Shown here piece after piece: positions 32,301 through 60,891 of a DNA stretch of 64,000 bases. The notes under the pieces were generated by a model that searched no databases, was not told the DNA's origin, and was given only the letters and a program-made list of their open reading frames with translations. Source of the stretch: Bacteroidales bacterium (GTDB taxonomy: Bacteria; Bacteroidota; Bacteroidia; Bacteroidales; Marinilabiliaceae). The stretch is taken from the NCBI GenBank assembly GCA_003249255.1, contig QKJP01000048.1:310001-374000 (forward strand), read 5' to 3'. Positions within the stretch are counted from its first letter, which is position 1, and each line of letters begins with the position of its first letter. The position numbers were made by a program, and so were the translations under genes.

Positions 32301-35300
32301 TCCAAATCATTTGCTGCAGGCCACACTGTTCTGCGGTCAGCCTCACTGTCATTATTATAATCAAGGGCTCGATGGGGAGTTAACTTCAACGGTATTTCAT
32401 ATTCGTAGTAGTTATCAACGTAATCACTTCCCAAACGGATAAAAGCGATCATATCATCATCAAACAATTGATTTTCTTGATTTGCGAGCGCCGCGGCATG
32501 AATAAACATTTTTAGGCGTTTATATTGACGCATGTCCATATTTGATGTCTTGTAAACGGCTTTGGACTCTCCATCCGCTAAATTTTGAACCTTTAATAAG
32601 ATGGACTGTTCGTTTAGCTCTCGCAATTGAGGGTTTGCAGGATCCACAACCCGATCAATACCAGGAGGCAATACATAGTTTACCGGTTTCTTACCACTAT
32701 TTTCCTCAATATTTACGGCAGACACCTCAAATTGTGGATTACTAGAAACAACGGTTTTATCATCATCAAATTCTCGATCGAAACGACGCCAATCGCCTTT
32801 TATTAAGTCAAGGGTGGCCATACGTAACACGATCTCCTTTTTAAAGCCTTTCATGACCATACGCATAAAACGAATGCTTCGGAAGTCACTTATACCATTC
32901 ACCGCATTATACTCTGAATCTAAGCGTATAGGAATACGGAATAAATACCAATCGGCAGTATTTCCTGCGGCATCTTTTTCAGTCCCTTTTCGTTTATCAA
33001 TTACATACTTCTGAGTTCCGTCACGCAAGGCCGTCATTGAAATTGGAACTTTATATTGGAAATATGCCTCGCTTTCGTTTAAAGTATAATCGCCATTAAT
33101 ATCTTCTACATCCGGTCTGGATTTGGATGAGGCTGAATAACCCGATTCTCCATCTTTAGCATCTGGAAGAGAGTTACCATCCGGACCATTAAAACGCTTG
33201 TAACGCTCAAGAATACCAGTTTGTGCATTATCAAAATCGGTACCTCTGAAATAATGGAAATCATCCGTTGCAGGGTCATTCTCAAGAGCGGTATATGGAT
33301 CCGAATCAACGATTGTTTGAATTCGCGCCAAAAAGTCTTTGTGCAACTTTTTCTCATTATCGCTACTTAAACCGTCAAAACCAACATCTTGCGCAAAACG
33401 GATGTTCTCGTCAGGAGAAAAACCATCTGAAATAACATCTTTATTCGAAACTGCTCCCCACTGGGTAAAGTCAATATTCAAACTTTTAGGTGGATTTGAA
33501 ATATCAATAGCATCCACATCCAAATCACCTGGCAATCCATTTTCAAATGACTTTCGCGAATCACGTAAAATATCTTCTGACACATTTCCCAAATGAAAAT
33601 ATAAAGTACCCGGATTATCTTCAGTGGCATACACATAAGGATCCATCATCCAAAACTCGATGTATTCTATATTGGCAGCTTCAAAATCCGGCACATCAAT
33701 TTTACGCATCATACCTCCCCAACGGGTTTCCGGATTCGTCAAGGTACCATCGCTATTTACACCGGCAGAATAAGCTGTTGCTTCTGCATCGAAGTTATAT
33801 GGTCCTCTTTCCTGGGGATAAAAAGCCAGGTTTAATACCGGTATATTTGATGGCTGACCATAAGGCTGCTGACGTTCAGGGAATAATTCTTTTTCATAAA
33901 TTTCACGAACGAGGTGATTTTTAGTTTCAGCATCAGCGTCATCACCTTTTAAGTGATCAGGGGTACGGCTATCGTCACGCACAAATAAAGGATCGATGGA
34001 ATACCAGGCTAAAAGTGCACGGTTTACTCCTGATGCTATGCCTGTAGAATCACCTGCCGGGAATCTATCTGTAGGATCAGGCTGAGTCCCTGATAATCCT
34101 TGAGGTGTACTGGCCAATTGCCAGGCTGTCCAGTTTCGCATATCGTATGATATACGAGTTCCTTCAAAGTCATCGATGTAAGCAGTTCCACTTTCTTCAA
34201 TTACATCGGGGTGGCCTGGTAAAATCTGAGCAAATTCACCATCGAAGGTGATGCTTGATTTCTCTTTGGTTTGAACAAATGGCAACCAGTCTAATGCTTC
34301 TGTAATGGCATTAGATTCAGTAAAGAAAGAGGTATTCATCCCCCAAACCGTATTTGAAATAGGCTCATCACCCATGCTAACTTTTTGGGTTAATGGCCGC
34401 TCGCTCAAGTGCATTACAGTAGCCCCAACATTAAAGTTCTCGTTGATGGCATAATCCAGATGTGTCCCCACTAAGGTTTTGGTCTGAAGATTAAACAAAG
34501 ACTGATTCTCTAAAGAAACCTGAATGGGTGTTCCTGAAGAAAGCAAGCCTTGGTTTAAGATACGTACACGCCCCAACATGTAATCAACGGTATAATCAAC
34601 ATTCTCTACCAACTTTTGACCACCTGCGGTAACCACAACCGACCCCTGTGGAACGTTCATGGCATTCAGAGAAATCTCAGATCCGGAACTTGACTTGTAT
34701 CGACCTTTTAATTTGTATTTGTTTTTAGATGCGTCTTTTTCGGCTTCTACCTGAGAGTTATCGTATAATGATTGGAAGACATACTTCTCATAATTTCCAT
34801 CTCCTTCTTTAAACCCACAACGTTCTGCTAAATTTCGACCAAATGGTTCCAGCACCGGGAAAATAATTCTTCCATTTTCGGTACGAATGGTCACATCAGG
34901 CACAAAGTCAAATACCCCATCCGGATTGTAATCATTCTGCGAGTTCAGGTTATCAAGATTTAATAAGCGTAAAAACAACTCACCTTTAACGCCTTCGTTT
35001 CCATCAGGCATATAATTAATATCACCACCTAACTTTTCATCGCGGTAAGTCACATTTAAAATAAAATCTTCCGGATTAACCTGATATGCATTAATGGAAT
35101 AGATGTTTTTCATCATCAAATTCCACGCTTCAGGCACTGCAGGATTTAGGTTGGTACTCTTTAAAAGTTTAAGTACTAAGGTTTGTGTTGGATCATTTCC
35201 TTCGCGGTTCGAAAACTCACCTACTGTTTTGGTTTCGCCAGTTTTAATAACAGTATACTCATAAGCAATGGCCAATACCTCATCAGCATTTAGAGATGAG

Positions 35301-36712
35301 CTTAACGAGATATACCCTAACGTTGGATGAACGCTATACTCAGTTTCTTTTAAAAGACGTGCATTTTCAAGCTTTTCGTAATCAACTGTATTTTTAAAAT
35401 CATTAATAGGCCTTAAAGTTTCAGTCACATTGTTAATATCTCTAATCCCACTGTAAGGGCTTACTGTCATTTTCTCATAAAGGGTATTGGCATCATTGCT
35501 TGGGGGTACAACACTTTCTCCGTCCCACAACAAATCGTTATGCATAAATTCCACTCCACTTTCCCCTAAATCAAGAAAAGCCACCACGTTACGGGCAGCA
35601 TCAATATCACGGCGCTTATTGGTTACCCAAACTTCTACACGCGTAATATTAATTTTACTACTAATAACGGGCAATTGCTTCAAAGCGTCTTCGTAATCAT
35701 CCCTAAATTGCTGACTTAAGAAGAAGTGACGGTTCTTATCGTATTCGTGTCCTTGAATTTCGAATTCTGAAGTAGAAGCACCGCCTTCGATATTCAACAC
35801 TTTAGATTCGCCACGCTGCTGAGAGAATACACTGGTTACGTTTAATTTACCAAACTGCATTTCGGTTTTCACCCCAAATAAACTCTGGCTACCGGTGATT
35901 AAGGTTCCCGGTAATGGCATGGTTACGTTACCAGCCTCTACGTTACGAAGAATATCATCTTCACCACCTTCGTATTCGATGTTTACCTGATTTTCGAAGT
36001 CGAAAGTTGCTTCGGTATTGTAATTGATTCCAAGTGTTAAACGCTCTCCAATGGTACCACTTACATTCATCTGAATTTTCTCTTGAAAATCGAAAGTAGT
36101 GGTTGAACGCAAACGCTCCTGAAGTGTAGGGTTATCAATTTTGGTATGCTGCACCCCTACCTTCAATTCAGCCATACCTTGTAGCTTCACGTTAATCTCG
36201 TTACTCCCAAAAATGGTTTCGAAAGCTTTACCACCCACTTTAAAAGAGGGATTAAGCAAAGAGAATCCCTTTTCGGCATAAGGAGCCTGTTCTTTTTGCT
36301 TTTGGCGCCAGTAAGATGTAACTGATCGGCGGTTTTCATGATCCATGTATTCTTCTAAAGACATGGTATATGGCATGCGCACATCCATATTACCCACTTT
36401 TTTGTAGAGGGTCACATTCCCGGTTTTATAATCATACCGTGGCGTATACTCCAGGTTACCGGGAGTTTGAAGATCTAAACCTCGTTGCTCTTCTTTTTCG
36501 AGTAAAGGATTTCCACTGTCGTCCTTAATCTTGTACTGAAGCTCTACTCGTGGAGTAACTTCTAAACAATCGGGTTCCTGATAATATTCTTCTGTTAACT
36601 CTGCAGTTAAACCTGCATCTATAAACGGAGAAGCACTAACTGCTAATAACAATAAGCAACTAGTGAATACGATAGCTATGCTATTTTTAAGATTACTTTT
36701 CAAAAGACTCAA
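29312..36712 (-). CDS. sprA: T9SS outer-membrane translocon protein SprA (Sov)
   Basis: The 2466-residue protein forms the very large 36-strand channel of the type 9 secretion system. Recognisable features: signal peptide region (SIAIVFTSCLLLLAVSASPF), repeated SprA-N segments (KVGGKAFETIFGSNEINVKL; GMAELKVGVQHTKI; FDFENQVNIEYEGGEDDIL), the PLPGTLITGSQSLFGVKTEM strand and an aromatic beta-strand end (YGVSFRFSLAQ). The only upstream start is TTG 36712. It begins 13 bases after ruvA, the usual order in the phylum. It would export the YPNP-tailed cellulases of this window. Confidence 0.96.
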   Translation of the reverse strand: MSLLKSNLKNSIAIVFTSCLLLLAVSASPFIDAGLTAELTEEYYQEPDCLEVTPRVELQYKIKDDSGNPLLEKEEQRGLDLQTPGNLEYTPRYDYKTGNVTLYKKVGNMDVRMPYTMSLEEYMDHENRRSVTSYWRQKQKEQAPYAEKGFSLLNPSFKVGGKAFETIFGSNEINVKLQGMAELKVGVQHTKIDNPTLQERLRSTTTFDFQEKIQMNVSGTIGERLTLGINYNTEATFDFENQVNIEYEGGEDDILRNVEAGNVTMPLPGTLITGSQSLFGVKTEMQFGKLNVTSVFSQQRGESKVLNIEGGASTSEFEIQGHEYDKNRHFFLSQQFRDDYEDALKQLPVISSKINITRVEVWVTNKRRDIDAARNVVAFLDLGESGVEFMHNDLLWDGESVVPPSNDANTLYEKMTVSPYSGIRDINNVTETLRPINDFKNTVDYEKLENARLLKETEYSVHPTLGYISLSSSLNADEVLAIAYEYTVIKTGETKTVGEFSNREGNDPTQTLVLKLLKSTNLNPAVPEAWNLMMKNIYSINAYQVNPEDFILNVTYRDEKLGGDINYMPDGNEGVKGELFLRLLNLDNLNSQNDYNPDGVFDFVPDVTIRTENGRIIFPVLEPFGRNLAERCGFKEGDGNYEKYVFQSLYDNSQVEAEKDASKNKYKLKGRYKSSSGSEISLNAMNVPQGSVVVTAGGQKLVENVDYTVDYMLGRVRILNQGLLSSGTPIQVSLENQSLFNLQTKTLVGTHLDYAINENFNVGATVMHLSERPLTQKVSMGDEPISNTVWGMNTSFFTESNAITEALDWLPFVQTKEKSSITFDGEFAQILPGHPDVIEESGTAYIDDFEGTRISYDMRNWTAWQLASTPQGLSGTQPDPTDRFPAGDSTGIASGVNRALLAWYSIDPLFVRDDSRTPDHLKGDDADAETKNHLVREIYEKELFPERQQPYGQPSNIPVLNLAFYPQERGPYNFDAEATAYSAGVNSDGTLTNPETRWGGMMRKIDVPDFEAANIEYIEFWMMDPYVYATEDNPGTLYFHLGNVSEDILRDSRKSFENGLPGDLDVDAIDISNPPKSLNIDFTQWGAVSNKDVISDGFSPDENIRFAQDVGFDGLSSDNEKKLHKDFLARIQTIVDSDPYTALENDPATDDFHYFRGTDFDNAQTGILERYKRFNGPDGNSLPDAKDGESGYSASSKSRPDVEDINGDYTLNESEAYFQYKVPISMTALRDGTQKYVIDKRKGTEKDAAGNTADWYLFRIPIRLDSEYNAVNGISDFRSIRFMRMVMKGFKKEIVLRMATLDLIKGDWRRFDREFDDDKTVVSSNPQFEVSAVNIEENSGKKPVNYVLPPGIDRVVDPANPQLRELNEQSILLKVQNLADGESKAVYKTSNMDMRQYKRLKMFIHAAALANQENQLFDDDMIAFIRLGSDYVDNYYEYEIPLKLTPHRALDYNNDSEADRRTVWPAANDLDIPLDLFHQMKLRRNRDKADLNERKTYVDRDHPSNYVTIKGNPSLGNVRTIMIGVRGNGGKELKSAEIWMNELRLTDFDEEGGWAANARMSVKLADLGNVSVAGKTSTVGWGSIDQNVQERSQEDFYQYDISSNLELGKFTGPESPLSVPMYVSYSQSVATPKYYALDPDVPLEVALNEAEDAEERDEIKELSQSIVRRKSINFTNVKLKPKNEKVQFYDPSNLSATYAFNSTEKYDAKTEHSYDKNYKGALGYNYNARPKAVEPFKKVKPKSLALIRDFNFYYMPSQISYRWELDRMYNEIKLRKPYDIAGAPDPEPTVSKDFDWNRYFDLKYNLTKSLKLSFRSVTNSDIREPDGIANKDYDYWGDSIRARIMDFGRVTTYQHNVDVSYKVPIDKLPMLDWTSANVSYRATYQWKVAPELRPLTQEQKDNGEKAFAPGNTINNLNAIQANGQLNFTSLYRKSSYLKELDKKYRSKSSRNTKSSSAKKVKFDKREVNFEEGKALTINHKLRTEKVNLRAFDQNGRPIQGTTNVLSKNAVEFIPKASSEGGRVSITGEREENNSPLKLALDYSMLMATSLKNASVNFSRNEGTVLPGYMPDSKFMGTDQGFSAPGVPFVLGWQDRDYAENAGKKGWLTQSAISNPYVMTSKDNLSLKVTLEPIRGLRIDLSGEWTRSLNIREYYTYKIGNVIEYYERTGNVEQGNFSMSFNMISTAFDKVEKSGNFASDTFDQFMKNKKAKGDENTQETMIPALLSAYSGSNDLKKYDNPMPDWTSMLPNWRVNYDGLSKIEIFKNIMKSFDISHAYRSTYNVGSFISLPQGERGTVGRYDYDINAVTISDQLSPLIGFNITWVNSLTTRMEVKKSRNISLSMGNNQLIENYNDELVIGLGYRFDKLPLILGRGGKQKSVNNDLNLRADFSLRDNVSIIRKIQEGYSDLTSGQKIWTVKFTADYALSNRFNMQLYYDTNMNTPYISTSYPITNSNYGVSFRFSLAQ

Positions 36713-39954: not shown

Positions 39955-40807
39955 ATTTAATCCCCCTCCATGTAACGCTACAAAAATAACCACAAACAAC
40001 CTATATACCATACATTTAAACAAACTTTACACAAAGAAGTTATTTTCGTCAAGAAATCGAGATATTAATTAGACAAACCTTTTGCCTAAGGATAAAAGGA
40101 ATAATTTTTAGGATCAAACCACTTTTGAAACCTTTAATACTTTCTAAATCCTATATTTTTCAAGTGACTCAACAAAAATTTATAAAAACACATGTATACT
40201 CGTGTAACAGTCTTAACGACTTATCTTAATCTCAGTTTACTTTATCAAAAAAACTGCTGACTCTCCCACCAACAGAATTTTTCTATCTTTTTTTGTGGAT
40301 GGCTTTTAAAAATCTTCTTTATCCAATTCGTAAAGCTGCTGCACAAGTTTTTTTTGTATTGCCAATTAAGCTTAAATAAATGGGTTAAACCCGGAATATG
40401 CATTAGAAATCCTATTCCGCACTGAAACGGCTTCAAAACAAGATGTTTCACTAACTTACTTCAACTCACCAGAGCGATGCTATGCCTCATTTCATCAAGT
40501 TCTTATCTTATTGCATTTTCAATGCTCATTACGAACTACTAATGCATAAACCGGGTTAAATATTAACCAATAAACTTCTTCATCCCAAAAACAAACTACA
40601 ACTCAACCACACTACTAAAGTTTAATCTCTAGATCAAACACCTCTTACACGTAAAGTTTTTTGAAAGATATTCCACAAAACTTTCTTAAATACTTAACAA
40701 AAACACTTTCCCATATAGGGTTAATTCACCCTAAAAGGTCATATATATTAAATAAGTATCAAAACCGGATCAGATCCGGCCACACGCATTTAAAAACTAA
40801 ATACACA
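39955..40807. other. Long non-coding region upstream of the GH5-like gene
   Basis: About 850 AT-rich bases without a convincing gene. A 68-codon minus-strand frame at 40245-40451 has no recognisable protein features and is probably chance. The last ~100 bases form the leader of the GH5-like gene and include a GC-rich palindrome at 40765-40779. Confidence 0.5.
40765..40779. promoter_or_regulatory. Perfect palindrome in the leader of the GH5-like gene
   Basis: CCGGATC-A-GATCCGG, a perfect 7-base inverted repeat with a single central base, lies 29 bases ahead of the chosen ATG in otherwise AT-rich DNA. It could be an operator or an mRNA hairpin masking the start region. No other exact copy was noticed near the other cellulase genes. 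Confidence 0.45.
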
Positions 40808-42955
40808 ATGAGAAAAATTCTACTCGCATTGGTCTTAGCTTTAATGGCTTTTGGGACTCATGCTCAAAAAGTTGAAATTTCCGGCAACAAATTTACCGTT
40901 AATGGAAATGAAATTTGGTTTAACGGAATAAATATTCCTTGGGTTGGCTTTGGTAGCTTTGGTCGACAAGACTGGAGTGAAGCTAAATGGGAAGAACAAT
41001 TTATTCGCTGTAAAGAAAACAACATTAATTTAATTCGAATCTGGATTCACTGCGGAGGTGAATATGATCCGGACATAAACGAAGCTGGACTTGTAACTGG
41101 TGCAAACAGTTATTTTTGGACGAATGTTGACAAAATAATGAAATTAGCACAAAAGCATAAAATGTATATTATGCCAGCCTTGTTTTCGTTTGATATTGTG
41201 AAGTTAAACTATTCAACCGGCGGACGATGGAGAAAATGGGTTGAATCTAAAGAAAACGTTCAAAGTTACATCGACAAAATATTAATTCCTTTAGTAGAAA
41301 AATATGACAATTTTGACTACTTATTAGGATGGGAAATATGCAATGAACCAGAATGGATGGCTGATAACAATGCAGGTAATCATAATTACACAGAGCTGAT
41401 CCGATTTCATGGGATGATGGCCGCTGCTGTGCATAAAAACGGGAAAAAACCGGTAACTACAGGATCTGCGGGCTTTAAATGGCACAGTCCAATAGCCGAA
41501 TCAATGAACAACCCAAAATATCCACCACCAGCAGGTCACTTATGGGCAGCAGATTCCTTAAAAAAATACAGTGGTGAAGATTTAGCATTTCTCGACTTTT
41601 ATCAAGTACATTGGTATCCTTGGCAAATTCCATGGTGGGAACCTCCATATACCGAAAAAGGAACTGCTGATTATTTTGAAATCAATGATCGCCCAATCAT
41701 TATTGGTGAAACGGAAGGTTCAGATGTTGATGTGAGCGATCAGGTTGACAACAAGCCATATTCCTTTAAAATGACTCTGAAAGACATGTATGAAAATGCC
41801 TACAAAAATGGGTACGATGGAGTTTGTGCCTGGATGACATTGGAAGGCGATGGACATGGAACCTTTCAAGAAATCATTACTGCTACTAATCCTTTTTTCG
41901 AGAATCACAAATATTTGGTTGACCCATCTTTAATTCCGGTTCCTGTAAAAGGGATTGCATTTACACAAGCAACACTCAGCATTGAAGTAAACGATGATTA
42001 TCCTTTAAAACTTCAATTTACTCCGGCCAATGCCACAAATAGAAATGTAACATACAGCCTGGAAAACAACAATCTTACCATTGACGAAAATGGCTTAATA
42101 GTTGGAAAAAAAATAGGCACATGTAAAGTAACTGCCACCAGTGAAGATGGAAGCTATAAAGCCTCTTGTGTAGTAACAACCACAGAAGATCTTCCCCCAA
42201 AACCATTAACACTAACCATTACAAAAACCGGAAACGGGAAAGTAACCAGTAACGTTGCAGGATCTACCGTTATGGAAGGAACTGAAGTTACGCTTACGGC
42301 TCACGATGGAGACGGCTTTGCATTTAATGGATGGACTGGTGATATAGTAGCTAATACTTATAGCATTACTTTTACCATGAAGCGAAACACTAACATCACT
42401 GCGAAATTTTCTGAGCACCCGGGAATCTGCAGCGATCCTACACCTATTACAGAAACGAACTTAAGATTATCTAACCTAAATGGTTCTTTCTGTTATGTGA
42501 TTGATGGCACAATAGAATATGTAAACTCCTGGAATGCATCAAGTCTCACCATTAATGGCGAAGAATTTGCAAACCAATATGCTAACGGTAATTTACCAAA
42601 TTCCATCAACGGAAAGTTTTACATTCATTTACAGACAGATAATAATGCCGGCATTGACATTAAGGTGAGTAGCTTTAATGAAGGTAGCGGCATTGTAACC
42701 AACATTGATGAGGAAAATGAGGTATTCTCAAAAGCCTATCCTAATCCTTTTGATGATCAGTGCATCATAGAACTTTCAAATCCTAAAGAAGTAAAACAGA
42801 TTCTGATCCTTGATCAACTAGGAAGTCCAATTGAAACCATTTCAGAAACCATTAGCAATAAAGTTTCGTTTGGTAGCGATTTAGCGAGTGGTTTATATTA
42901 TATCGTTATCCAGACTAAGGATTCGATAAAAACCATTAAGGCTCTGAAGAAATAG
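40808..42955 (+). CDS. Secreted GH5-like glycoside hydrolase with Ig-like, InlB-repeat and T9SS sorting domains
   Basis: The ATG at 40808 gives 715 residues starting with a good signal peptide (ILLALVLALMAFGTHAQ); the frame to 40661 adds 49 unlikely residues. The catalytic clan GH-A barrel (about 20-375) has WEICNEPEW (acid/base Glu) and IIIGETEGSD (nucleophile Glu); the substrate is beta-mannan or beta-glucan, not decidable here. Then come a Big_2 Ig-like domain (~378-462), an InlB-type repeat (GDGFAFNGWTGD, ~463-538), a cysteine-containing module shared with the GH48 enzyme (~540-630) and a T9SS sorting domain (AYPNPFDDQ to the end). Confidence 0.9.
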   Translation: MRKILLALVLALMAFGTHAQKVEISGNKFTVNGNEIWFNGINIPWVGFGSFGRQDWSEAKWEEQFIRCKENNINLIRIWIHCGGEYDPDINEAGLVTGANSYFWTNVDKIMKLAQKHKMYIMPALFSFDIVKLNYSTGGRWRKWVESKENVQSYIDKILIPLVEKYDNFDYLLGWEICNEPEWMADNNAGNHNYTELIRFHGMMAAAVHKNGKKPVTTGSAGFKWHSPIAESMNNPKYPPPAGHLWAADSLKKYSGEDLAFLDFYQVHWYPWQIPWWEPPYTEKGTADYFEINDRPIIIGETEGSDVDVSDQVDNKPYSFKMTLKDMYENAYKNGYDGVCAWMTLEGDGHGTFQEIITATNPFFENHKYLVDPSLIPVPVKGIAFTQATLSIEVNDDYPLKLQFTPANATNRNVTYSLENNNLTIDENGLIVGKKIGTCKVTATSEDGSYKASCVVTTTEDLPPKPLTLTITKTGNGKVTSNVAGSTVMEGTEVTLTAHDGDGFAFNGWTGDIVANTYSITFTMKRNTNITAKFSEHPGICSDPTPITETNLRLSNLNGSFCYVIDGTIEYVNSWNASSLTINGEEFANQYANGNLPNSINGKFYIHLQTDNNAGIDIKVSSFNEGSGIVTNIDEENEVFSKAYPNPFDDQCIIELSNPKEVKQILILDQLGSPIETISETISNKVSFGSDLASGLYYIVIQTKDSIKTIKALKK

Positions 42956-48720: not shown

Positions 48721-51700
48721 TTACTGCTTAAGAATTTTAGCAACATACTCACGAGTAGCAGTTGTAATTTTCACAAAATATAATCCTGTAGATAACTCAG
48801 AACCTAATTCAATTTTTTCAGTAAGTGCAGAACAAGAAACAGCTTTTAATACTCTTCCTGATTGATCAAGTAGTTCAACTTTTTCTACTTCATCAATGTT
48901 AGTTAAATCTACATTTACATTATCGTTAAATGGATTAGGATAAACTGAAATTTGTACTGTTTCAGTAGAAACAAATGCATCTTCAATTCCAGTAGGGATA
49001 CCAACGATATCTTCTTTACTCTGAATATCCAGGTGACCTCCGGATTTACCATTGTACTCTACATAGTATTTACCACCAACAGCAGCAGGAATCGCATTAG
49101 TCCATTTGTTAGTTAAATCTACGCCGTTAATTTTTAAAGAATTCAAGTTATAAGAATTAACATGATCAATTGGCACATTAATTTCAAAACAGTATGTACC
49201 TGATCCTTCAAAGTCAAAAGGTAACTCTTTTACCTGAGGACTAGAACAAGCCACCGTACCACGTTTGAAATTAGCAGTTAAAGTAGTATTACCATCAACT
49301 TTCACAGTAGTTGTAGCACCTTCTGCTTCTGAAGCACCACTCCAACCATCAAAGATATAACCTTCTTCAGCATGAGCTGTGGCAGTTACAAATGTACCTT
49401 TTGCATAACCACCATTGGTTGGTGCAGGATTTAATGTCACTGAACCTCCCATTGAAGCTCTCGCATTAAGCGTATAACGTGTAATAGAACCATTACCCAC
49501 AACTTGTACCGCACAATCAGCAGTATAGTTTCCATCAACAGTTTTTACGGTTACTTTCGCATTTCCGATAGATACACCAGTAATAACACCATCTTTTACA
49601 GTTACAATTGCCGGATTTGATGAAGTCCAAGTTACAGATTTATTATCTGCCATAATAGGATCTACAATGGCTTCCAAAATAAATTTCTCACCAGTCTCAA
49701 TTTTAACTGTTTCAGGTTTCATTCGAACATCAACAACTGCAACAGTCTCATCAGCTGCACTTTCTCCAAAGAAACGACCATACTCTCCAAACGCTAACAT
49801 GATGTCAACCTGAGCCCAGAAACGGTGGTATCTCATAGTAGCCTCACCATCATCTTTAATATCAGCTTCAAATTCAGCCCAACCCGGAAGTTTTTTGTAA
49901 TTCGAACGAATATCGATAAAAGAAACACCTGGTTTAATTTCATCACCATTAGGCATTGTACCGGTCCAACCATTTGGAACATATAAAGAATCGGTTGTAA
50001 AGAAACGTTTAAAGTCGCCTCTTGTCTCTTCAGTAGAGAACCCTTTTCCATTATCTCCTTCGTAGAAGTTCTTATACATTCTATCTAGGATTTCTTTGGC
50101 AGTTTTCTGAGCTCCAAAATCACTATCTTTATCATATTTCTTATTAGCAGCTGCATAGTAAATTAATGCTTTAGCTAAACAACCCGAGATACCTAAATCA
50201 GTACCATGTTCTTTTACCTTAACATGTAAACCTGTATTTTCTTTTGGATTTTGAGGATCCCAAGTTTCTGGCTGACCGCTCCACTCTAAAGTTGCTGGAA
50301 TTTCAAAAGTTCCATCGTTATAGAATTTAACTTCACTAACTGCCCATTTCGCCCATTTATCACATACTTTTTTAACACGTGGATCATTACTTAAGTAGTA
50401 TAATTCACACATACGTTGCATCGACCAAGCTTGCATACCAAACCACTGGTTAGAACCCGGATCGTGATATACTGGGTGCTCTTGGTAAGCCATTCCGTAG
50501 AAAGTAGCCATACCTGAAGGGTATTGAGAATAATCACCATTGTAGCTATTAGTTGCACCACCGGCGATACCACCTTCTGCAGATTGTAACCATTGGTATA
50601 ATTCAACCTGACGGTTAAGCGACTCGTTCCAATCACGAAGACCATTTTCTGATTTTGGAGCAAATTCTGGAACCTGGCTCATTGCATACGCACAAACTGG
50701 GTTTTGGTAACCAAAGTGAGCATGAGAAGAACCAATTCTCCATGACCATGATGCTTGCGCTCCAATTCCACCACCCCAGCTATAATACCAAGACACTAAG
50801 TAGTGAACACTTTCATAACCATTACCGGATGCTTGCTTATTTTGACATCCAATTTTCTTAAAATACTTATCACTGAAAGATAAACGTACAAAATCTCCTA
50901 ATTTTGAAATTTTATCCATTGGGAAAATTTCTGCAGGATCTTGATTTTGTTCTTTAGCCATATCAACAGCTAACATCATGGCTTGTACGACACGAGCATC
51001 AGCATCAGGCGCATTTGTATATCTCCATTGTTTGGCGTAACCATTAGGATCTTTGGTAAATAAAGAAAGAAATCCTTCGCCCGGCTTACCCCATTTTTGC
51101 TCTTCCCATGATGGGTGAGGAATGGCTTCCCAAACCGACTCCTGAACACCACGCTGGAAGTTGTTAATATATGAGCAGGTACTAGTACCGTCTCCCATAT
51201 TACCAAATCCATAGAAGTTATCTAAATCGAATAACCAATGCATACCGTAAACTTGCGAACCATAAGCAGCCGTTAAATCATTAGAAATTCCATCGCTACC
51301 TACAGGAACACTTCCTTCTAATGCTACCGGATATTGACGAGCAGTTGGCATTTCTGATGCATAAGTAGCAGGTGACGAAGGTTTATAATTACCCACATTT
51401 GGCTGCATTTCTTTGGTAGGAATCGTAAATTTCTCCATTAAATCGATAGAACGGTTTAATTTACTCCAGTCTTTGGTTAAACCACCATAAAGAGCATCGA
51501 TCCAAATCCAATAAGAAACAGCTTCACTAGTCGATTCATGACCATAATCAGGTGCTTCAACCATAAATTTCTCAATAGAGTGATATGGAAGACCATCTGC
51601 ACTGAAATAACCATTATTAGGGTTATAAATAATATCATACATTTTTAAGAACTTCTGGGTGTACTCATTGTACTCAGAATAGTCCTTGGCCATTGAATTA

Positions 51701-51744
51701 AAGCCCAAACAGGCCAACAAGCCAATTGATAAAAGTTTTTTCAT
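48721..51744 (-). CDS. GH48 cellulase with Ig-like, InlB-repeat and T9SS sorting domains
   Basis: GH48 enzymes are processive cellobiohydrolases acting from reducing ends. 1007 residues: signal peptide (1-19); GH48 catalytic domain (~22-655) with EAPDYGHESTSEAVSYWIW, where Glu74 matches the known acid and Glu63 a second conserved Glu; also WSWRIGSSHAHFGYQNP and LEWSGQPETW. Then a Big_2 Ig-like domain (~668-752), an InlB-type repeat (GYIFDGWSGA, ~757-832), a cysteine module shared with the GH5-like enzyme (~833-910) and a T9SS sorting domain (SVYPNPFND to the end). No CBM3, unlike the neighbouring GH9 enzymes. The family is typical of Firmicutes and Actinobacteria, so transfer is likely. Confidence 0.94.
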   Translation of the reverse strand: MKKLLSIGLLACLGFNSMAKDYSEYNEYTQKFLKMYDIIYNPNNGYFSADGLPYHSIEKFMVEAPDYGHESTSEAVSYWIWIDALYGGLTKDWSKLNRSIDLMEKFTIPTKEMQPNVGNYKPSSPATYASEMPTARQYPVALEGSVPVGSDGISNDLTAAYGSQVYGMHWLFDLDNFYGFGNMGDGTSTCSYINNFQRGVQESVWEAIPHPSWEEQKWGKPGEGFLSLFTKDPNGYAKQWRYTNAPDADARVVQAMMLAVDMAKEQNQDPAEIFPMDKISKLGDFVRLSFSDKYFKKIGCQNKQASGNGYESVHYLVSWYYSWGGGIGAQASWSWRIGSSHAHFGYQNPVCAYAMSQVPEFAPKSENGLRDWNESLNRQVELYQWLQSAEGGIAGGATNSYNGDYSQYPSGMATFYGMAYQEHPVYHDPGSNQWFGMQAWSMQRMCELYYLSNDPRVKKVCDKWAKWAVSEVKFYNDGTFEIPATLEWSGQPETWDPQNPKENTGLHVKVKEHGTDLGISGCLAKALIYYAAANKKYDKDSDFGAQKTAKEILDRMYKNFYEGDNGKGFSTEETRGDFKRFFTTDSLYVPNGWTGTMPNGDEIKPGVSFIDIRSNYKKLPGWAEFEADIKDDGEATMRYHRFWAQVDIMLAFGEYGRFFGESAADETVAVVDVRMKPETVKIETGEKFILEAIVDPIMADNKSVTWTSSNPAIVTVKDGVITGVSIGNAKVTVKTVDGNYTADCAVQVVGNGSITRYTLNARASMGGSVTLNPAPTNGGYAKGTFVTATAHAEEGYIFDGWSGASEAEGATTTVKVDGNTTLTANFKRGTVACSSPQVKELPFDFEGSGTYCFEINVPIDHVNSYNLNSLKINGVDLTNKWTNAIPAAVGGKYYVEYNGKSGGHLDIQSKEDIVGIPTGIEDAFVSTETVQISVYPNPFNDNVNVDLTNIDEVEKVELLDQSGRVLKAVSCSALTEKIELGSELSTGLYFVKITTATREYVAKILKQ

Positions 51745-51765
51745 TATAAAAAAATTTAAGATGGA

Positions 51766-51798
51766 AAACCATACTCCCTGTAGGAGTATGGTTCTTTT
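51766..51798 (-). promoter_or_regulatory. Stem-loop in the gap between GH9 and GH48 genes
   Basis: AACCATACTCC pairs with GGAGTATGGTT around CTGTA. Read on the minus strand it follows the GH9 stop by about 7 bases and precedes the GH48 start by about 20. The following T run is short and interrupted. It may be a weak terminator or an intercistronic stem-loop adjusting GH48 expression within one transcript. Confidence 0.6.
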
Positions 51799-51804
51799 GC
51801 AAGT

Positions 51805-54800
51805 TTATTTAATTACTAATTTGATATTTTCTGAAACAGATTCACTCTGAACACTAATCACATAGATACCGGCTTCCAATTTACCTGCTGGAATTGTATA
51901 TTGGTTTTGAGCACTTGATTGAAGAGCTACTGCACCTGCTAAGTTGTAAACCGTAACTACAGATTCTTCGCCCGAACCAAGAGCTACATTAACAGATTCA
52001 CCTCTTGAAGGATTTGGATATACTTTAACAGTTGCTTCTGCTTTTTCTGACACACTTGCTGTAGGCGTAGTATTAACCACTGGCTCAATACCATAAGCTA
52101 ATACGCCATTTTGATAGACGGTAACTTTCTCCCACTCTGCAAAACTTGTAGATGCAGTATAAGAATAATCAGCTGTAGGATTAAAAGCATTTGCATAAGG
52201 ATTTAAGTGTAATCTACCTTGAATCTCACCCGACGTGGTCTTCGCAGCAAGTTGACCTGTACCCGCTTTAAAGCTAATCTCTAAGTATTGGTTAGCATCT
52301 TCAGATGCTTTCTCCATTTGTACAACTTTAGCAGAAACATTAGAGCTCTTAATGCTTTCATGAACATAATCTAAGTCAAATACCATTCCTGATTTCAAAT
52401 CAGATTTAAACCAATAACGAAGAGTTAATTCATCCATATTTACAGGTTCATCCCCGGCATTTACAATTTTAAATTGAGCACCAATTGCATCAGCACTTGC
52501 ATTACCCATTTTAAACTGGGCTTTAATATCACCCATTAAACTTGGGTCACGAACAGTAATAACTGTCGAATAAGTATCTTTTCCTAAAGTCGCATGTGCA
52601 ACGGTTAATACAGCAGTAAATTGTCCGTATTCAGTATAGGTATGCGTTGCTGTTTTTCCGGTTCCGCTTTTTCCGTCACCAAAATTCCAAGAGTAAGTTA
52701 AAGCTTCACCATTAGCGATGTAAGAAGTGCTAGCATCAAAGTTAACTTCAAGAGGTCCGGCACCACTTAGCGGAGTTGCAGTAAACGAAGCTACAGGAGG
52801 ACTATTCTTATCTTTTACTGTAATCTCTGCTGTTTTAGTACTAGACTCACCATCTGCAGAAACCGTTAATGTAATTGTATAACTACCCGGATCAACATAC
52901 TTATGTGAGGCTGTTTTACCGGTTCCTTTAGAACCATCACCAAAATCCCATGCATAAGCTAAAGTAGCGCCTTCCGGTCCGGTAGATTCGCTTGCATCCA
53001 CAGCAACAGTTAAAGGATTCATACCCATTGTTGGAGTCGCAGAAAATTTAGCGCGAGGACGGAAACCTCCTACGGCACATCCTTCGTGCTCGATACCAGC
53101 TAAATAGTTACCATCGTCGAAAATAGCGACCTTATCATTTCTTTGTCCAAAACGGTCTTCACCGGGACCAACAAATTCATAAGAAAAATCGTTGGAAGCA
53201 TCCCACTTATATTTCGATGCATGATCTGAGAAACCAACTCTCAACTGAACTTCTCTATAACAATTACTTTGACCAGTAGGAGCAATCTCCTCTCCGGATA
53301 AATCTACTTCTACGTAATAAATATGATTAGCTTCATCACACACTTTAATACCGGAAACAGTTCCCACTGCACCATTTTTAGTAGCTGCATAATCTGCTAA
53401 AGTAGCACCCGACTCAAAACCTTCTGATAAATCAACGTAATAACGGAAGGATAATTTATCTGTCATACGAGCAGGCCATGCTGAACGGTTGTGAATATGA
53501 ACCGCAACCTCTGAGAATACAGCACCCGCAGTATTTTCTTTAGTGGTTGTGATAAACTCATCTACGGGCTGTTCTTCGATTGGGAAGTTAGCTAAACCTG
53601 CTCCGCCATATAGATCAACCATTTTTGCCATACAACCAGTAAATGCAGCATTATAATCACAAGCTACCTCGTTTAGAATATAATCCCCTCGATCATTTTC
53701 AAAACCATCTTCAGTATCAGGACCTCCTACTAAGGCACCATATAGGATATGACGACTATCTACAGGACTTGTTTTACTATCATTCCATGATCCATGCATG
53801 GTACGGTGGTGAGGAGCATTGGGAGGATTATTACCAAACCCACACACATAACTACTTTTACGAGGGTTATCACCCAATGCATAATTCATTTGACGAGTTG
53901 CAAAGTCAATGTAAGCTTGTTTCTTAGCAGCAGGCGCCATATCACTATATACCAACGCAATAAATGATATACCAGAGGCATAACGTAACGACCCCCACTT
54001 AGCAGGTTCTACATAAGCTAACCCACCACGCGTATATGGTGCGGCTTTATCATTTGGATTAACCTTTTCACCTCTCCAAAAGTCAAGATGTCTCTCAACA
54101 TCTTGTCTATATTTTGCCTCACCTGTAGCTTGAGCCATTAAGGTATAACACCCATAACATTTATTATCCCATGCTAAGGCCCATTTGTAAGCATGGCCTT
54201 TACTAACATCACGAGCATCATCATACTCCAGGTATTCGTCGTAATTGGTTTTCGCATAGTCTAAATAGGTTGCATCCCCTGTGGCCTTGTGCAACCATAA
54301 AGCCGACCAGATTAACTCATCTTTATAACCACTCCAAGAATTATAAAAAGAAGATGCATCTTTAATCGACTCTGAATATTTTCCTTGATATGTTTTTGCA
54401 AAAGTAAAAAGCTCCTTTGCATGCTTTAATAATTCAGCAGCATAAGCAGTTTGTCCGGCAGCTTTAAATACCATACTTGATGCAGCCATTGCAGCAGCAG
54501 TCTCACCTGCTAAATCAGATCCCGGGTTTTGAGCATCAATTTTGAAAGCTGGTCTGGCAATTTTTGCAGGATAAACCTCTGCTGATCCCCACCATGTGTG
54601 ATCTGGTCCACCTTCACCTACTTGCCCATACAATTCATTTGGAGCAGTATGACATTTAATAAAATAATCATTTACAAACTTAAGGTTTAAAAGCAATTCA
54701 TCCATTTGTCCGGCTTTCTCATAACCTTCTTTGAATTCTAATGCACCCCACGATAACATGGTAGTGGAGAATGCCATTGGAAAGTTAAATTTAACATGAT

Positions 54801-55032
54801 CACCGGCATCAAACCAGCCACCGGTTAAATCAACGCCAACATCTTTTCCATCATCCATAGCTGAATTACCACGCCAAGTAACGCGGTTCCAGTCCGGCTT
54901 TGGTCCGGATTGCTGACATTCATAGAAGAATATCGATTTTTGAAGAACTTCTCCATAATTGTATTTCGGATCTGCTGCGCTCATAACGAACCCCAACATT
55001 AATCCCAGTACTAACAATGTAAGTTTTCTCAT
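51805..55032 (-). CDS. GH9-CBM3c endoglucanase with two PKD domains, CBM3 and T9SS sorting domain (copy 1)
   Basis: The ATG at 55032 (MRKLTLLVLGLMLGFVMSAA, signal peptide) is preferred; the frame to 55065 adds 11 residues. 1075 residues: GH9 catalytic domain (~22-485) with GGWFDAGDHVKF (Asp75, Asp78), VCGFGNNPPNAPHHRTMHG and NEVACDYNAAF (acid Glu); CBM3c (~490-655; NRSAWPARMTDKLSFRYYVD), which in this enzyme type makes the endoglucanase processive; PKD domains at ~662 and ~747 (YAWDFGDGSKGTGKTASH); a CBM3 (~832-985; FAEWEKVTVYQNGVLAYGIE) that would bind crystalline cellulose; T9SS sorting domain (VYPNPSRGE). Paralogue of the 55729 gene. Confidence 0.95.
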   Translation of the reverse strand: MRKLTLLVLGLMLGFVMSAADPKYNYGEVLQKSIFFYECQQSGPKPDWNRVTWRGNSAMDDGKDVGVDLTGGWFDAGDHVKFNFPMAFSTTMLSWGALEFKEGYEKAGQMDELLLNLKFVNDYFIKCHTAPNELYGQVGEGGPDHTWWGSAEVYPAKIARPAFKIDAQNPGSDLAGETAAAMAASSMVFKAAGQTAYAAELLKHAKELFTFAKTYQGKYSESIKDASSFYNSWSGYKDELIWSALWLHKATGDATYLDYAKTNYDEYLEYDDARDVSKGHAYKWALAWDNKCYGCYTLMAQATGEAKYRQDVERHLDFWRGEKVNPNDKAAPYTRGGLAYVEPAKWGSLRYASGISFIALVYSDMAPAAKKQAYIDFATRQMNYALGDNPRKSSYVCGFGNNPPNAPHHRTMHGSWNDSKTSPVDSRHILYGALVGGPDTEDGFENDRGDYILNEVACDYNAAFTGCMAKMVDLYGGAGLANFPIEEQPVDEFITTTKENTAGAVFSEVAVHIHNRSAWPARMTDKLSFRYYVDLSEGFESGATLADYAATKNGAVGTVSGIKVCDEANHIYYVEVDLSGEEIAPTGQSNCYREVQLRVGFSDHASKYKWDASNDFSYEFVGPGEDRFGQRNDKVAIFDDGNYLAGIEHEGCAVGGFRPRAKFSATPTMGMNPLTVAVDASESTGPEGATLAYAWDFGDGSKGTGKTASHKYVDPGSYTITLTVSADGESSTKTAEITVKDKNSPPVASFTATPLSGAGPLEVNFDASTSYIANGEALTYSWNFGDGKSGTGKTATHTYTEYGQFTAVLTVAHATLGKDTYSTVITVRDPSLMGDIKAQFKMGNASADAIGAQFKIVNAGDEPVNMDELTLRYWFKSDLKSGMVFDLDYVHESIKSSNVSAKVVQMEKASEDANQYLEISFKAGTGQLAAKTTSGEIQGRLHLNPYANAFNPTADYSYTASTSFAEWEKVTVYQNGVLAYGIEPVVNTTPTASVSEKAEATVKVYPNPSRGESVNVALGSGEESVVTVYNLAGAVALQSSAQNQYTIPAGKLEAGIYVISVQSESVSENIKLVIK

Positions 55033-55682
55033 AGTAAAAAAATTTATTTCTAGTTGATTTTTCAATTCTTAAATCGGAAATGATCACGCTTGAATTCCCC
55101 ACCTCGATCAATTCAGACAATCCTATGACATAAATTTAAAGCCTCACCCTAGACCGAAAACAAATCTTTTTTTTAAAAATTCAGAAACACAAACATTAAA
55201 CCCTGATAATGAATATTTTATTTGTTAAAAAAATACAATTCATCAGTTATCTACAATCATCAGTACATCATTTTGCACGATAAATTGAAAGGTTTCATTG
55301 ATAAAAACAACATTCGAATTGGAACAATTCCCTAATAGTTAGATTATGGACTACCCACATCTATTAGGTAAATTCATAAAGCCTATTAACCCTTATGTCG
55401 TTTATTTTTAACCCATTACAAAAAAAGGCTAACAAGCCTATTTGAAATTCAATTATTATACTTGACCAACAATCAACGAAATACCAGGCTTTTATAAAAG
55501 AAAGATGGCTATATATAGCACAAATAAAACCTAACAAATAGAGTTTAGAAGAAGAAGCTGAGGGAGACCAATAAGCCTGAAAAATAAACAGTTATGCCCT
55601 CAACAAAAGAACTGCAAAGTCACTCATTAAAAGATAAAAGCGCTCAAGAAACGGTATTTTACCTATAAAAGAAGAGATACAA
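55033..55682. other. Non-coding region between the two GH9 genes
   Basis: 650 AT-rich bases, no gene seen. The part nearest the start codon of the GH9 copy 1 gene contains GATCATTTC (minus strand, 55077-55085) and CTAGAAATA; both also occur in the leader of GH9 copy 2 (58973-58981 and about 58952-58960). Upstream promoter likely, but no confident -33/-7 pair could be fixed. Confidence 0.45.
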
Positions 55683-55720
55683 AAAAAGCCACGTCCTCAA
55701 AACTGAGAACGTGGCTGCTT
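55683..55720 (-). terminator. Terminator of GH9 copy 2
   Basis: On the minus strand GCCACGTTCTCAG, TTTT, then GAGGACGTGGC and a run of T. It starts about 10 bases after the GH9 copy 2 stop codon, so this gene is likely transcribed separately from copy 1. Confidence 0.9.
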
Positions 55721-55728
55721 TTATTCAT

Positions 55729-58700
55729 TTACTTAACCACTAATTTAATGTTTTCAGTAACAGATTCACTCTGAATACTAATCACATAGATACCTACATC
55801 TAATTTCCCTGCAGGAATTGTCAATTTATTTTGAGCAGTTGCCTGAAGCACTAGTGTTCCAGCCAAGTTGTAAACAGTTACAACAGACTCTTCACCTGAA
55901 CCAAGAACAACATTGACAGCTTCTCCTTTAGACGGATTTGGAAAAACACTAACCTTTGAGATTTCTGTTTCTTTCACTGAAACAGATCCATTATTTGAAA
56001 ATTTAGGCTCTATCCCGCCGATTAAGATTTCATTCTGATAAATGGTGATATTATCATACTCTTGTAAACTTGATGGCGCATTTATTTGAGAGTAAGAATT
56101 AGCCCTATCAAAATCTTGTGGATAATAATCTTCTACATGGAGGGTGAAATTAATTTCGCCTGTACTCGAGTTTGCAGCTAATTGACCCGCACCAGATGCG
56201 AAAGACAATTCAATATAATGGGTAGCATTTTCGGCTGCATTTTTCAGTTTAACCAGCGTGGCTTTGATATTATCTTTACCTATACCGCCGTCATTATCAA
56301 CACGGATTGCAACAGCATGTTCAGCTTTCATGGTTACCCAATACCTTATAACCATCTCATCTAAAGAAACAGCATCGTCACCTTCATTAGCCATTTGAAT
56401 GGTTATTGGAATCTGGGCATCATCACCTTTTTCTACTTTGATAAGTAATTTAACGTTACCTACTAAGTCTGGATCTTTAACAGTAATAGTTTTGGTTGCT
56501 TTACTTGTACCGGTAGAAGAAGTTACCGTTAACTCTACGGTGAAAGTTTCAAATCCGGTAAAAGTATGAGAAACCTTTACGCCAGAAGCAGTTTTACCAT
56601 CTCCAAAGTTCCATGAGTAAGTTAATTCTTCACCATTTGCCACATACGAAGCTGAAGCATCAAAATCTACAGCCAGTGGAGCAACACCATTTGTTGCATT
56701 GGCAGTAAATGAAGCTACCGGAGGACTATTTTTATCTTTTACTGTAACACTAGATGTTTTTGGACTTGATGATTCTCCATTTGCTGTTACTACTAAAGTA
56801 ATCACATAATTACCAGGATCAGCATACACATGAGAAGCAGTCTTGCCAGCCCCTTTTGAACCATCGCCAAAATCCCAGGCATAAGTTAAAGCAGCGCCTT
56901 CAGGACCTGTGGACTCACTAGCATCTACTTTTACAGTCATTGGATTCATTCCTAAAGTAGGTGTCGTTGAGAATTTTGCACGAGGACGATAAGCTCCAAC
57001 AGCACATGCATCAGGCTCAAAACCACCCACATAATTACCATCATCAAAAACCGGCATGTTATAATTCCGACCTTCATCTTTGGTACTGTAACTACCTTCT
57101 ACATAAGAAAAGTCATTATCAGGATTCCAGGCACCTGTAACTCCACTCTTCAATCCAATATTAAATTGAATATCAGCTACTGAAGGACCATCACCAATTG
57201 GGGCATACATTTTGCCAGACAAATCAATTTCGATATAATAAATGTGATTAGCTTCATCGCACGCTTGAAAATTAGAAAGCTTTCCTGCTGAATTATTACT
57301 AACTGTATAATCAGCCAATGTCAATCCGGCATCAAATCCTTCGGATAAATCAACATAATAGCGCGTAGATAATTTATCTGAACCACGTGCCGGCCAAGCA
57401 GAGTGATTGTGCAAGAAAACTTTAACGCTAGTTGTATTACCTTGCGTTTTAATATCATTAATCGCACAATAAAATTCATCTACAGGCTCTTCTTCAATGG
57501 GAAAATTAGCCAAAGGTGCACATCCGTCAAAGGCTTCACATAACCCTGCTAAAACAGATGTAAAACTGGCATTATAATCACAAGCTACCTCATTGGTGAA
57601 ATAATTCCCACGATCATCTTCGTAACTATCGTCACTTAATGGCCCTCCAACCAATGCTCCATAAAGAGTATGGCGGCTAGGATTAGGAGCTTTAGAAAAA
57701 CCATTTCCCCATGTACCATGTACTGTACGGTGGTGAGGATTAACCGGAGGATTTTTTCCAAATCCACAAACATAACTACTTTGACGTGGATTATCTCCTA
57801 GCATGTAATTAATTTGATTAACAACAAAATTTTGATAATCAGCCTTTTTTGATGCCGGAGCCATATCTGCATACAATTGTAATAATATACAAACATTGGC
57901 AGTATAACGAAGTGGTCCCCACTGATAGGACCAATATAAACCACCACGTGTAACTACATCATCACCTTTATTAAAATCATAAACCCAATAATCCAAGTGA
58001 CGCTCTAAATTTTCTTTATACGTAGCTTCTCCTGTAAGTTCATACATTAAATAATGACATAGTCTTCCTTTATCATCCCAAGAACCGGCCCAAATATACT
58101 CTGGTACTTTTTCCTGCCCTTCCTGATTAAGATTTGGATACTCTTTTTTCGCGTAATCAAGATACTTCTCCTCACCTGTTGCTTTATACAGCCAACACGC
58201 GGCATAAACTAACTCATCATAATACCCACTCCAGGAGTTATAATAGGTAGTCGCATCGGTAATTGCTTCAGGATATTTTCCACGATAGTTGTAGGCAAAA
58301 TCATATATTTCTTTAGCATGTCGAATTAATTCAGCCGCATAAGTAGGATCATCTTCTTTCAATAACATACTTGTTGCAGCCATCGCTGCAGCTGTTTCAC
58401 CGGCTAAGTCTGACCCGGGATGTTCTGCATCAATTTTATATGAAGGACGATCTACACCAGCCAAATGATATACTTCAGCAGAACCCCACCAACCATGGTC
58501 AAGACCACCGTTACCAACTTGTCCCCAAAGAACATTAGGTTCCGGATGACATTTAATAAAATAGTCGGTAACAAATTTCAAATTTCTTTTAAGAATCTCA
58601 AGTTGTCCCATATCCTGATAACCTTGCTTAAATTCTAATCCACCCCAAGCAAGCGTAGTAACAGTCCAAGCCATTGGAAAGTTAAATTTTACGTGGTCAC

Positions 58701-58929
58701 CGGCATCAAACCATCCACCATTTAAATCCAGTCCAACATCTTCACCATCATTCACGCAAGCATCACCACGCCAAGATACGCGGTTCCAATCCGGAAGCGG
58801 ACCAGCCTGTTGAGCTTCATAAAAGAATAATGACTTCTGAAGAACTTCTCCATAATTGTATTTCGGACTTGCTGCATGCATCATGAAACCAAGCAATAAG
58901 CCGAATACTATAAACGTAAGTTTTTTCAT
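55729..58929 (-). CDS. GH9-CBM3c endoglucanase with two PKD domains, CBM3-like and T9SS sorting domain (copy 2)
   Basis: 1066 residues with the same layout as copy 1: signal peptide (1-19), GH9 (~21-480; GGWFDAGDHVKFNF, VCGFGKNPPVNPHHRTVHG, NEVACDYNASF), CBM3c (~485-645; NHSAWPARGSDKLSTRYYVD), PKD domains at ~650 and ~736, a CBM3-like domain (~822-972) and a T9SS sorting domain (VFPNPSKGE). The last CBM3-like domain has diverged more: several aromatic and acidic positions kept in copy 1 differ (LQEYDNITIYQNEILIGGIE), so its cellulose binding may be weaker or altered. Tandem duplication followed by divergence is the simplest origin. Confidence 0.95.
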   Translation of the reverse strand: MKKLTFIVFGLLLGFMMHAASPKYNYGEVLQKSLFFYEAQQAGPLPDWNRVSWRGDACVNDGEDVGLDLNGGWFDAGDHVKFNFPMAWTVTTLAWGGLEFKQGYQDMGQLEILKRNLKFVTDYFIKCHPEPNVLWGQVGNGGLDHGWWGSAEVYHLAGVDRPSYKIDAEHPGSDLAGETAAAMAATSMLLKEDDPTYAAELIRHAKEIYDFAYNYRGKYPEAITDATTYYNSWSGYYDELVYAACWLYKATGEEKYLDYAKKEYPNLNQEGQEKVPEYIWAGSWDDKGRLCHYLMYELTGEATYKENLERHLDYWVYDFNKGDDVVTRGGLYWSYQWGPLRYTANVCILLQLYADMAPASKKADYQNFVVNQINYMLGDNPRQSSYVCGFGKNPPVNPHHRTVHGTWGNGFSKAPNPSRHTLYGALVGGPLSDDSYEDDRGNYFTNEVACDYNASFTSVLAGLCEAFDGCAPLANFPIEEEPVDEFYCAINDIKTQGNTTSVKVFLHNHSAWPARGSDKLSTRYYVDLSEGFDAGLTLADYTVSNNSAGKLSNFQACDEANHIYYIEIDLSGKMYAPIGDGPSVADIQFNIGLKSGVTGAWNPDNDFSYVEGSYSTKDEGRNYNMPVFDDGNYVGGFEPDACAVGAYRPRAKFSTTPTLGMNPMTVKVDASESTGPEGAALTYAWDFGDGSKGAGKTASHVYADPGNYVITLVVTANGESSSPKTSSVTVKDKNSPPVASFTANATNGVAPLAVDFDASASYVANGEELTYSWNFGDGKTASGVKVSHTFTGFETFTVELTVTSSTGTSKATKTITVKDPDLVGNVKLLIKVEKGDDAQIPITIQMANEGDDAVSLDEMVIRYWVTMKAEHAVAIRVDNDGGIGKDNIKATLVKLKNAAENATHYIELSFASGAGQLAANSSTGEINFTLHVEDYYPQDFDRANSYSQINAPSSLQEYDNITIYQNEILIGGIEPKFSNNGSVSVKETEISKVSVFPNPSKGEAVNVVLGSGEESVVTVYNLAGTLVLQATAQNKLTIPAGKLDVGIYVISIQSESVTENIKLVVK

Positions 58930-59872: not shown

Positions 59873-59905
59873 GGGTAATCTGAATGAACTTGTCATAAGG
59901 GTACA

Positions 59906-60862: not shown

Positions 60863-60891
60863 AATTACAAACCTTGCATACAAAAAAATTA

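Follow-up and report, generated by a model that had tools for sequence, protein, structure and literature searches.

Cellulase genes of the window

The window is a stretch of 64,000 nucleotides of contig QKJP01000048.1, from the genome of a member of the family Marinilabiliaceae (Bacteroidales, Bacteroidota). Described here is its cellulase locus, one gene of glycoside hydrolase family 48 (GH48) and two GH9-CBM3c-PKD-PKD-CBM3 genes (CBM, carbohydrate-binding module) in a row on the minus strand, an arrangement given in a preliminary description of this DNA and borne out by the open reading frames (ORFs) and profile matches (Table 1). The GH48 protein (48721-51744, minus strand) matches Glyco_hydro_48 (PF02011) with 919.6 bits, profile positions 1-619 of 619 being covered. 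The GH9 proteins match Glyco_hydro_9 with 495 bits (51805-55065, lower gene) and 488 bits (55729-58929, upper gene). The profile scan places two CBM_3 and two PKD_4 stretches in each GH9 protein and finds no PKD or CBM3 match in the GH48 protein.

The lower GH9 gene probably starts at ATG 55032 rather than at TTG 55065, because signal-peptide-like sequence is read there; its end is 60 bp from the GH48 gene. The hairpin between the two GH9 genes suggests that the upper GH9 gene and the lower GH9-GH48 pair are separate units. The two GH9s are sisters in the GH9 tree (support 98/84), which, with their 56% identity, suggests a gene duplication in this lineage. Only one GH48 was found in the source genome, with four GH9 matches.

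Table 1. Features of the cellulase locus and of related genes in the window
Feature	Coordinates	Strand	Basis
GH48 gene (1007 aa): signal-peptide-like start, GH48, Big_2, InlB-like, CBM64, type A T9SS tail	48721..51744	-	ORF list, profile matches
GH48 catalytic domain; E63, E74, D247 = Cel48F E44, E55, D230	49768..51663	-	profile, alignment, model
GH48 protein, Big_2 Ig-like domain	49510..49737	-	profile match
GH48 protein, Flg_new_2 (divergent InlB B-repeat) domain	49261..49476	-	profile match
GH48 protein, CBM64; 1/5 aligned tryptophans of solved CBM64 5e9p kept	49042..49227	-	profile, alignment
GH48 protein, T9SS type A sorting domain	48724..48945	-	TIGR04183
Lower GH9 gene: GH9-CBM3c-PKD-PKD-CBM3-T9SS tail	51805..55065	-	ORF list, profile matches
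Lower GH9, catalytic domain; T. fusca Cel9A (E4) closest solved match	53632..54957	-	profile, solved-structure match
Lower GH9, CBM3c fused to GH9	53086..53580	-	1js4, 8u49, 2xfg_B matches
Lower GH9, two PKD domains	52540..53058	-	profile; extent from further alignments
Lower GH9, C-terminal CBM3, scaffoldin-like	52081..52533	-	profile, solved-structure match
Lower GH9, T9SS type A sorting domain	51808..52023	-	TIGR04183
Upper GH9 gene, domain order as lower GH9, 56% identical paralogue	55729..58929	-	ORF list, profiles, alignment
Upper GH9, catalytic domain	57550..58854	-	profile match
Upper GH9, T9SS type A sorting domain	55732..55947	-	TIGR04183
Terminator-like hairpin (13 pairs, T-run) between the two GH9 genes, 3' of upper GH9	55687..55716	-	pattern match only
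GH5 mannanase-like, Big_2, InlB-like, CBM64, T9SS tail; likely start ATG 40808	40661..42955	+	profile, solved-structure matches
sprA, T9SS outer-membrane channel	29312..36712	-	SprA_N (PF14349) 684.5 bits

Catalytic and structural features

Residues E63, E74 and D247 of the window GH48 are equivalent to E44, E55 and D230 of Cel48F, which we take to be its catalytic residues, and are kept in 60 of 60 GH48 rows. The E44 and E55 positions were fixed through two solved mutants that show Q (1g9j, titled E44Q, and 1f9d). At 36 of 36 tunnel positions, placed in the window protein by hand from motifs, the residue matches at least one of the five GH48s whose 36 tunnel residues are tabulated in Table 2 of PMC5707792. 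An AlphaFold model built from 46 rows has a mean predicted local distance difference test score (pLDDT) of 91.8; an earlier model from 9 rows (pLDDT 52.7) was poor and was set aside. The model superposes on the GH48 of Caldicellulosiruptor bescii (4l0g) with Z 58.1 and 1.4 Å over 619 residues (VIA-align). Seventeen GH48 entries are listed at Z 47.0-58.1, the next fold at Z 24.9. Predicted model and tunnel positions together give the (alpha/alpha)6 barrel with a substrate tunnel.

Thermobifida fusca Cel9A (1js4) is the best solved match for GH9 and CBM3c of the lower gene alike, the alignment covering residues 32-634 of the lower GH9 protein (678 bits); 8u49 (645 bits) and Cel9G (549 bits) follow. 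GGWFDAGD and NEVACDYN are kept in both window GH9 genes; the Asp, Asp and Glu of GH9 are presumably catalytic. CBM3c directly follows GH9, as in the Cel9A-type architecture, and the C-terminal CBM3 of the lower protein can be aligned to both 2l8a and the scaffoldin CBM of CipA (1nbc). The dockerin family has no match at E 0.001 in the three window cellulases, which in this respect are unlike cellulosome enzymes.

Sorting domains and export machinery

All three enzymes end in a sorting domain of the type IX secretion system (T9SS), with TIGR04183 scores of 40.8 (GH48), 41.6 (lower GH9) and 42.0 bits (upper GH9) against a cut-off of 23, so that the profile match on which the preliminary description let its secretion claim depend is present. 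The tails had been called YPNP-type throughout; this holds for GH48 and the lower GH9, and the upper GH9 has FPNP. The GH48 tail also matches PF18962 (44.5 bits, cut-off 27). TIGR04183 matches 35 of the 36 C-termini tested, and the exception must be Verrucomicrobia row L014, because its end is a Cel124 domain without the tail motif. This protein (L014:5277-12320), from a metagenome-assembled genome (MAG), has 2347 aa with GH5, CBM6, six Big_2, GH48, CBM2 and Cel124 domains and no T9SS tail match.

The channel gene sprA lies in the window, as had been noted (Table 1). The source genome also carries two neighbouring PorU sortase homologues (C44:148148-154762; 1110.6 and 994.1 bits, cut-off 420); usually one PorU is expected. 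The search of the export machine covered two components, SprA and PorU, both found. The N-termini read by eye as Sec signal-peptide-like.

Distribution and arrangement in Bacteroidota

GH48 above cut-off occurs in 3 of 395 genomes of the phylum sample, 2 of 395 of the class, 1 of 393 of the order and 5 of 71 of the family, each count including the window's own genome; the earlier statement that GH48 is rare in Bacteroidota agrees with the phylum figure. The genome scan kept the best 80 loci by likeness to the window and is biased to window-like GH48s, so its Bacteroidota count, at least 25 loci in at least 24 genomes by record title, is a lower bound. Several of these genomes are from uncultured isolates. 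Holders are Geofilum, Saccharicrinis, Labilibaculum, Fulvivirga, Aquimarina, Tenacibaculum, Flavivirga, Flammeovirga, Cyclobacteriaceae and one further member of the Flavobacteriaceae. Given the low sample counts together with this number of loci, GH48 in Bacteroidota is rare but recurrent.

GH9 is fused to GH48 or next door in 22 of the 25 Bacteroidota loci (fused 17, adjacent 5); the remaining 3 have no GH9 in the examined flank, flanks reaching up to 8 kb and some being ended by contig ends. The fused proteins have 1690-2343 aa, and the three scanned with Pfam read GH9-CBM3-PKDs-GH48-T9SS tail. The other 55 loci (L014 included) comprise 1 fused, 16 adjacent, 1 with GH9 elsewhere in the flank and 37 with none. 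GH9 is present in 19 of 19 genomes checked, 17 of them Bacteroidota. On the GH48 tree the fused state requires at least 4 changes, with 7 rows left out as unknown. A single 1680-aa open frame of a Chloroflexi MAG (L054:4848-9887) joins GH9 to GH48 and is another case of the fusion.

Neighbour ORFs of Bacteroidota GH48 genes match GH5 (PF00150) in 6 of 9 scanned cases. A T9SS tail above the Pfam cut-off of 27 is found in 5 of these 6; the sixth scores 24.4.

Proposed function

The locus is quite probably an extracellular set for the attack of crystalline cellulose, exported by the T9SS, and the local form of a recurrent Bacteroidota GH9/GH48 cassette. The analysis itself establishes the domain make-up, the residues of the catalytic site and the tunnel, a predicted fold, the sorting tails, two genes of the T9SS, the clades and the linkage; activity, synergy, export and surface location are each read from sequence. 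GH48 would be a cellobiohydrolase, presumably working from the reducing end, and the two GH9-CBM3c enzymes would be processive endoglucanases. The enzymes would reach the periplasm by Sec, pass through SprA of the type IX system by means of their type A tails, be cut by PorU and then be attached to the cell surface or released. At the fibre, GH9-CBM3c is expected to make openings in chains and move along them, with GH48 degrading chains to cellobiose and with CBM3 and CBM64 keeping the enzymes in place. The recurrent cassette takes the form of neighbouring genes or of one CelA-like fused protein. Synergy of GH9-CBM3c and GH48 modules has been shown for CelA (PMC3865294, accessible part).

Several observations weigh against this function. 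Three Fulvivirga species with one GH48 and one GH9 each were cellulose-negative in vitro (PMC10113389, accessible part), so GH48 plus GH9 is not proof of cellulose use. The same part of that source files the Fulvivirga GH48s under chitin, and GH48s listed as chitinases exist (PMC11238990, seen in part). The CBM64 of the window keeps 1 of 5 aligned 5e9p tryptophans, versus 4 of 5 in the Geofilum GH48, and for that reason the GH48 alone may bind cellulose weakly.

The Fulvivirga observations also favour a reading in which the set is chiefly meant for a different polymer or role (chitin, cellulose of algae or bacteria, mixed-linkage glucan) and plant-type crystalline cellulose is not its natural target. 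Many holders belong to sea-associated genera (Aquimarina and Tenacibaculum, presumably marine), and a mannanase-like partner, near GH48 in the window and beside it in two other loci, suggests a composite wall target. The tunnel residues, however, are of the GH48 cellulase type at 36 of 36 positions, CBM3 and CBM64 accompany the catalytic domains, and the neighbour ORFs are mostly GH5, which alone is no proof of a cellulose substrate. A main role on another polymer is unlikely, though the strongest of the alternatives to attack on crystalline cellulose.

Phylogeny and origin

The GH48 tree (IQ-TREE) has 60 rows, from 47 of the 80 scan loci (near-duplicates dropped), 10 further genome-search loci and the window; for the outgroup-free tree, 4 long or divergent rows were removed. 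For the GH9 tree 59 of 95 GH9-bearing sources were used, 23 near-duplicate or re-fetched ones being skipped and 13 falling below 150 bits or 400 aligned positions; this tree lacks distant GH9s and is midpoint-rooted.

In the GH48 tree 25 Bacteroidota rows, with the Verrucomicrobia MAG (L014) nested among them, form one clade (100/98). A Bacteroidota GH48 clade with many members, which the preliminary description had named as removing the novelty, is therefore largely what is found, with at least 25 loci. The clade lies outside the main Bacillota clade of nine rows (100/99), seven of them titled Bacillota and two assigned to Caldicellulosiruptor by near-identity to 6d5d. With outgroups removed, every bootstrap tree (100%) has a branch that separates the nine from all other rows (100/100). 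Another Bacillota MAG and an identical row are placed beside Chloroflexi/Actinobacteria (93/83), and one Acetivibrio GH48 copy is a long outer branch. In the GH9 tree the Bacteroidota form one clade (100/96) beside Actinobacteria and Chloroflexi, with clostridial GH9-CBM3c as a separate group.

The preliminary description derived the catalytic parts from cellulolytic Firmicutes by transfer, PKD and T9SS domains having taken the place of dockerins. Such an origin by recent transfer is improbable. The pairing of GH48 with GH9-CBM3c is well known in Firmicutes (CelA; PMC3865294, accessible part), and the approximately unbiased (AU) test leaves standing the trees in which Bacteroidota GH48 is held with the Caldicellulosiruptor pair (p 0.102) or with other Bacillota (p 0.112). 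Against it stand the separate GH48 clades and the rejection of Bacteroidota GH9 held with clostridial GH9-CBM3c, a group set by an earlier prediction (p 0.0008). The best solved GH9 match, T. fusca Cel9A, is moreover what we take to be an actinobacterial enzyme. Three GH9s of neighbouring branches (Herpetosiphon, Planomonospora, Roseateles) carry CBM3 and CBM2, with fn3 in two, and no dockerin match, which leaves the replacement of dockerins without support. Taken together, the AU results, the clades and these dockerin-free neighbours make it unlikely that the GH9s came from Firmicutes and lost dockerins, and leave that route unproven for GH48. Judged by sequence, the system belongs to a lineage encountered repeatedly within the phylum, as opposed to a one-off transfer.

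Assembly contamination or a lone recent import is hardly credible: the genome is listed at 4.23% contamination, but the contig runs to 528,846 bases, sprA lies in the same window, related loci occur in at least 24 Bacteroidota-titled genomes, and a genome of the same genus, with a GH9 gene directly before a GH48 gene 70% identical to that of the window, largely refutes the idea.

Tandem GH48 domains in a single protein occur at L012:5745-10898 and also at loci L006/L009. The paired domains are nearest to each other within each genome (100/98, 100/100), and for this reason would either have arisen twice or have been homogenised.

Proposed exchange of the GH9 module

On the Flavobacteria/Cytophagia side of the tree, the 16 GH48 rows group together with support of 100/100. 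The 16 corresponding GH9 rows do not; forcing them together costs 246 log units (AU p 0.0002), for a group that was chosen after viewing the tree, that lacks L074 (no GH9 in its flank) and that includes L029, which is outside the GH48 tree. Those GH9 halves that come from Aquimarina spongiae, A. amphilecti, Aquimarina 2201CG14-23 and one Tenacibaculum group with unfused GH9s of A. amphilecti (L104) and of a Cyclobacteriaceae genome (L111) (100/100). The GH9 halves of the fused proteins thus belong to at least two lineages, the GH48 halves to one clade. The simplest reading would be replacement of the GH9 half by a paralogue with the GH48 linkage kept.

It is somewhat favoured that Bacteroidota possess their own T9SS-exported GH9/GH48 lineage, in which GH48 is one clade, GH9 was swapped at least once and the CelA-like giant arose apart from that of Caldicellulosiruptor. 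If true, selection would keep the linkage of both activities and not a particular sequence.

Comparison with known systems

CelA of Caldicellulosiruptor bescii (GH9-CBM3c-CBM3b-CBM3b-GH48) has the same catalytic pair, with CBM3c on GH9 and GH48 last; 17 of the 25 Bacteroidota loci share with it the single polypeptide and the catalytic order. Differences from CelA are the separate genes of the window pair, which is therefore not of the single-polypeptide type, the PKD, Big and CBM64 spacers and T9SS tail, and the position of Bacteroidota GH48 and GH9 in other clades than the Caldicellulosiruptor rows. Genera with fused Bacteroidota proteins are not known to be thermophilic. The fused proteins are a second CelA-like series, and what joining GH9 and GH48 in one chain does can be studied in them by comparison with the split forms of related species.

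Thermobifida fusca Cel9A (E4) is the best solved GH9-CBM3c match, with GGWFDAGD and NEVACDYNA kept. T. fusca Cel9A and Cel48A differ from the window enzymes in that they come from an actinobacterium, which releases them into its medium, and are not known to bear a T9SS tail. Clostridial cellulosomal Cel48F/CelS with Cel9 enzymes share the GH48 family, tunnel and catalytic residues; unlike them, the window three have no dockerin match and belong to different clades. Candidatus Paraporphyromonas polyenzymogenes and Aquimarina CelAly likewise bear T9SS sorting domains on multimodular cellulases, although, in the accessible parts of the sources, the characterised enzymes there are GH5-based.

How Bacteroidota can degrade crystalline cellulose without classical exocellulases has been a puzzle for a long time, with Cytophaga as the known case. 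The accessible part of PMC5831590 gives GH6/GH48 exocellulase as not found, as in other Bacteroidetes genomes. PMC11238990, in the part seen, places Bacteroidota among GH48 phyla and counts six architectures in which GH48 occurs twice. No description of a T9SS-tailed GH48 or a fused Bacteroidota GH9-GH48 was found in the accessible literature, most subscription papers, preprints and supplements (including the architecture tables of PMC11238990) being outside it. The set would be a T9SS-dependent version of a known synergistic GH9/GH48 pair, its secretion context apparently new to the accessible GH48 literature. The defined Bacteroidota genome set lets the use of a processive pair on crystalline cellulose, and its dependence on the T9SS, be asked directly.

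Neighbouring genes

The GH5 mannanase-like protein, so assigned from solved matches 3vup and 2c0h, is the fourth T9SS-tailed enzyme of the window and also has a CBM64. Its gene is 5.8 kb from GH48 on the opposite strand; close homologues adjoin GH48 in Saccharicrinis and Labilibaculum. Elsewhere in the source genome a GH5 (PF00150) match contains one TAA (C42:5481-6245). Between the mannanase-like gene and GH48 lies a SusC-like TonB-dependent receptor (44127-46691; TIGR04056 279.7 bits against a cut-off of 368.25), with no SusD match in the scanned neighbour ORFs. Genes for an ECF (extracytoplasmic function) sigma factor, a FecR-type anti-sigma factor and a 510-aa protein without a Pfam match are located at 59291-62591 and transcribed away from the GH9 genes; the three together might serve the cellulase set as a surface-signalling switch.

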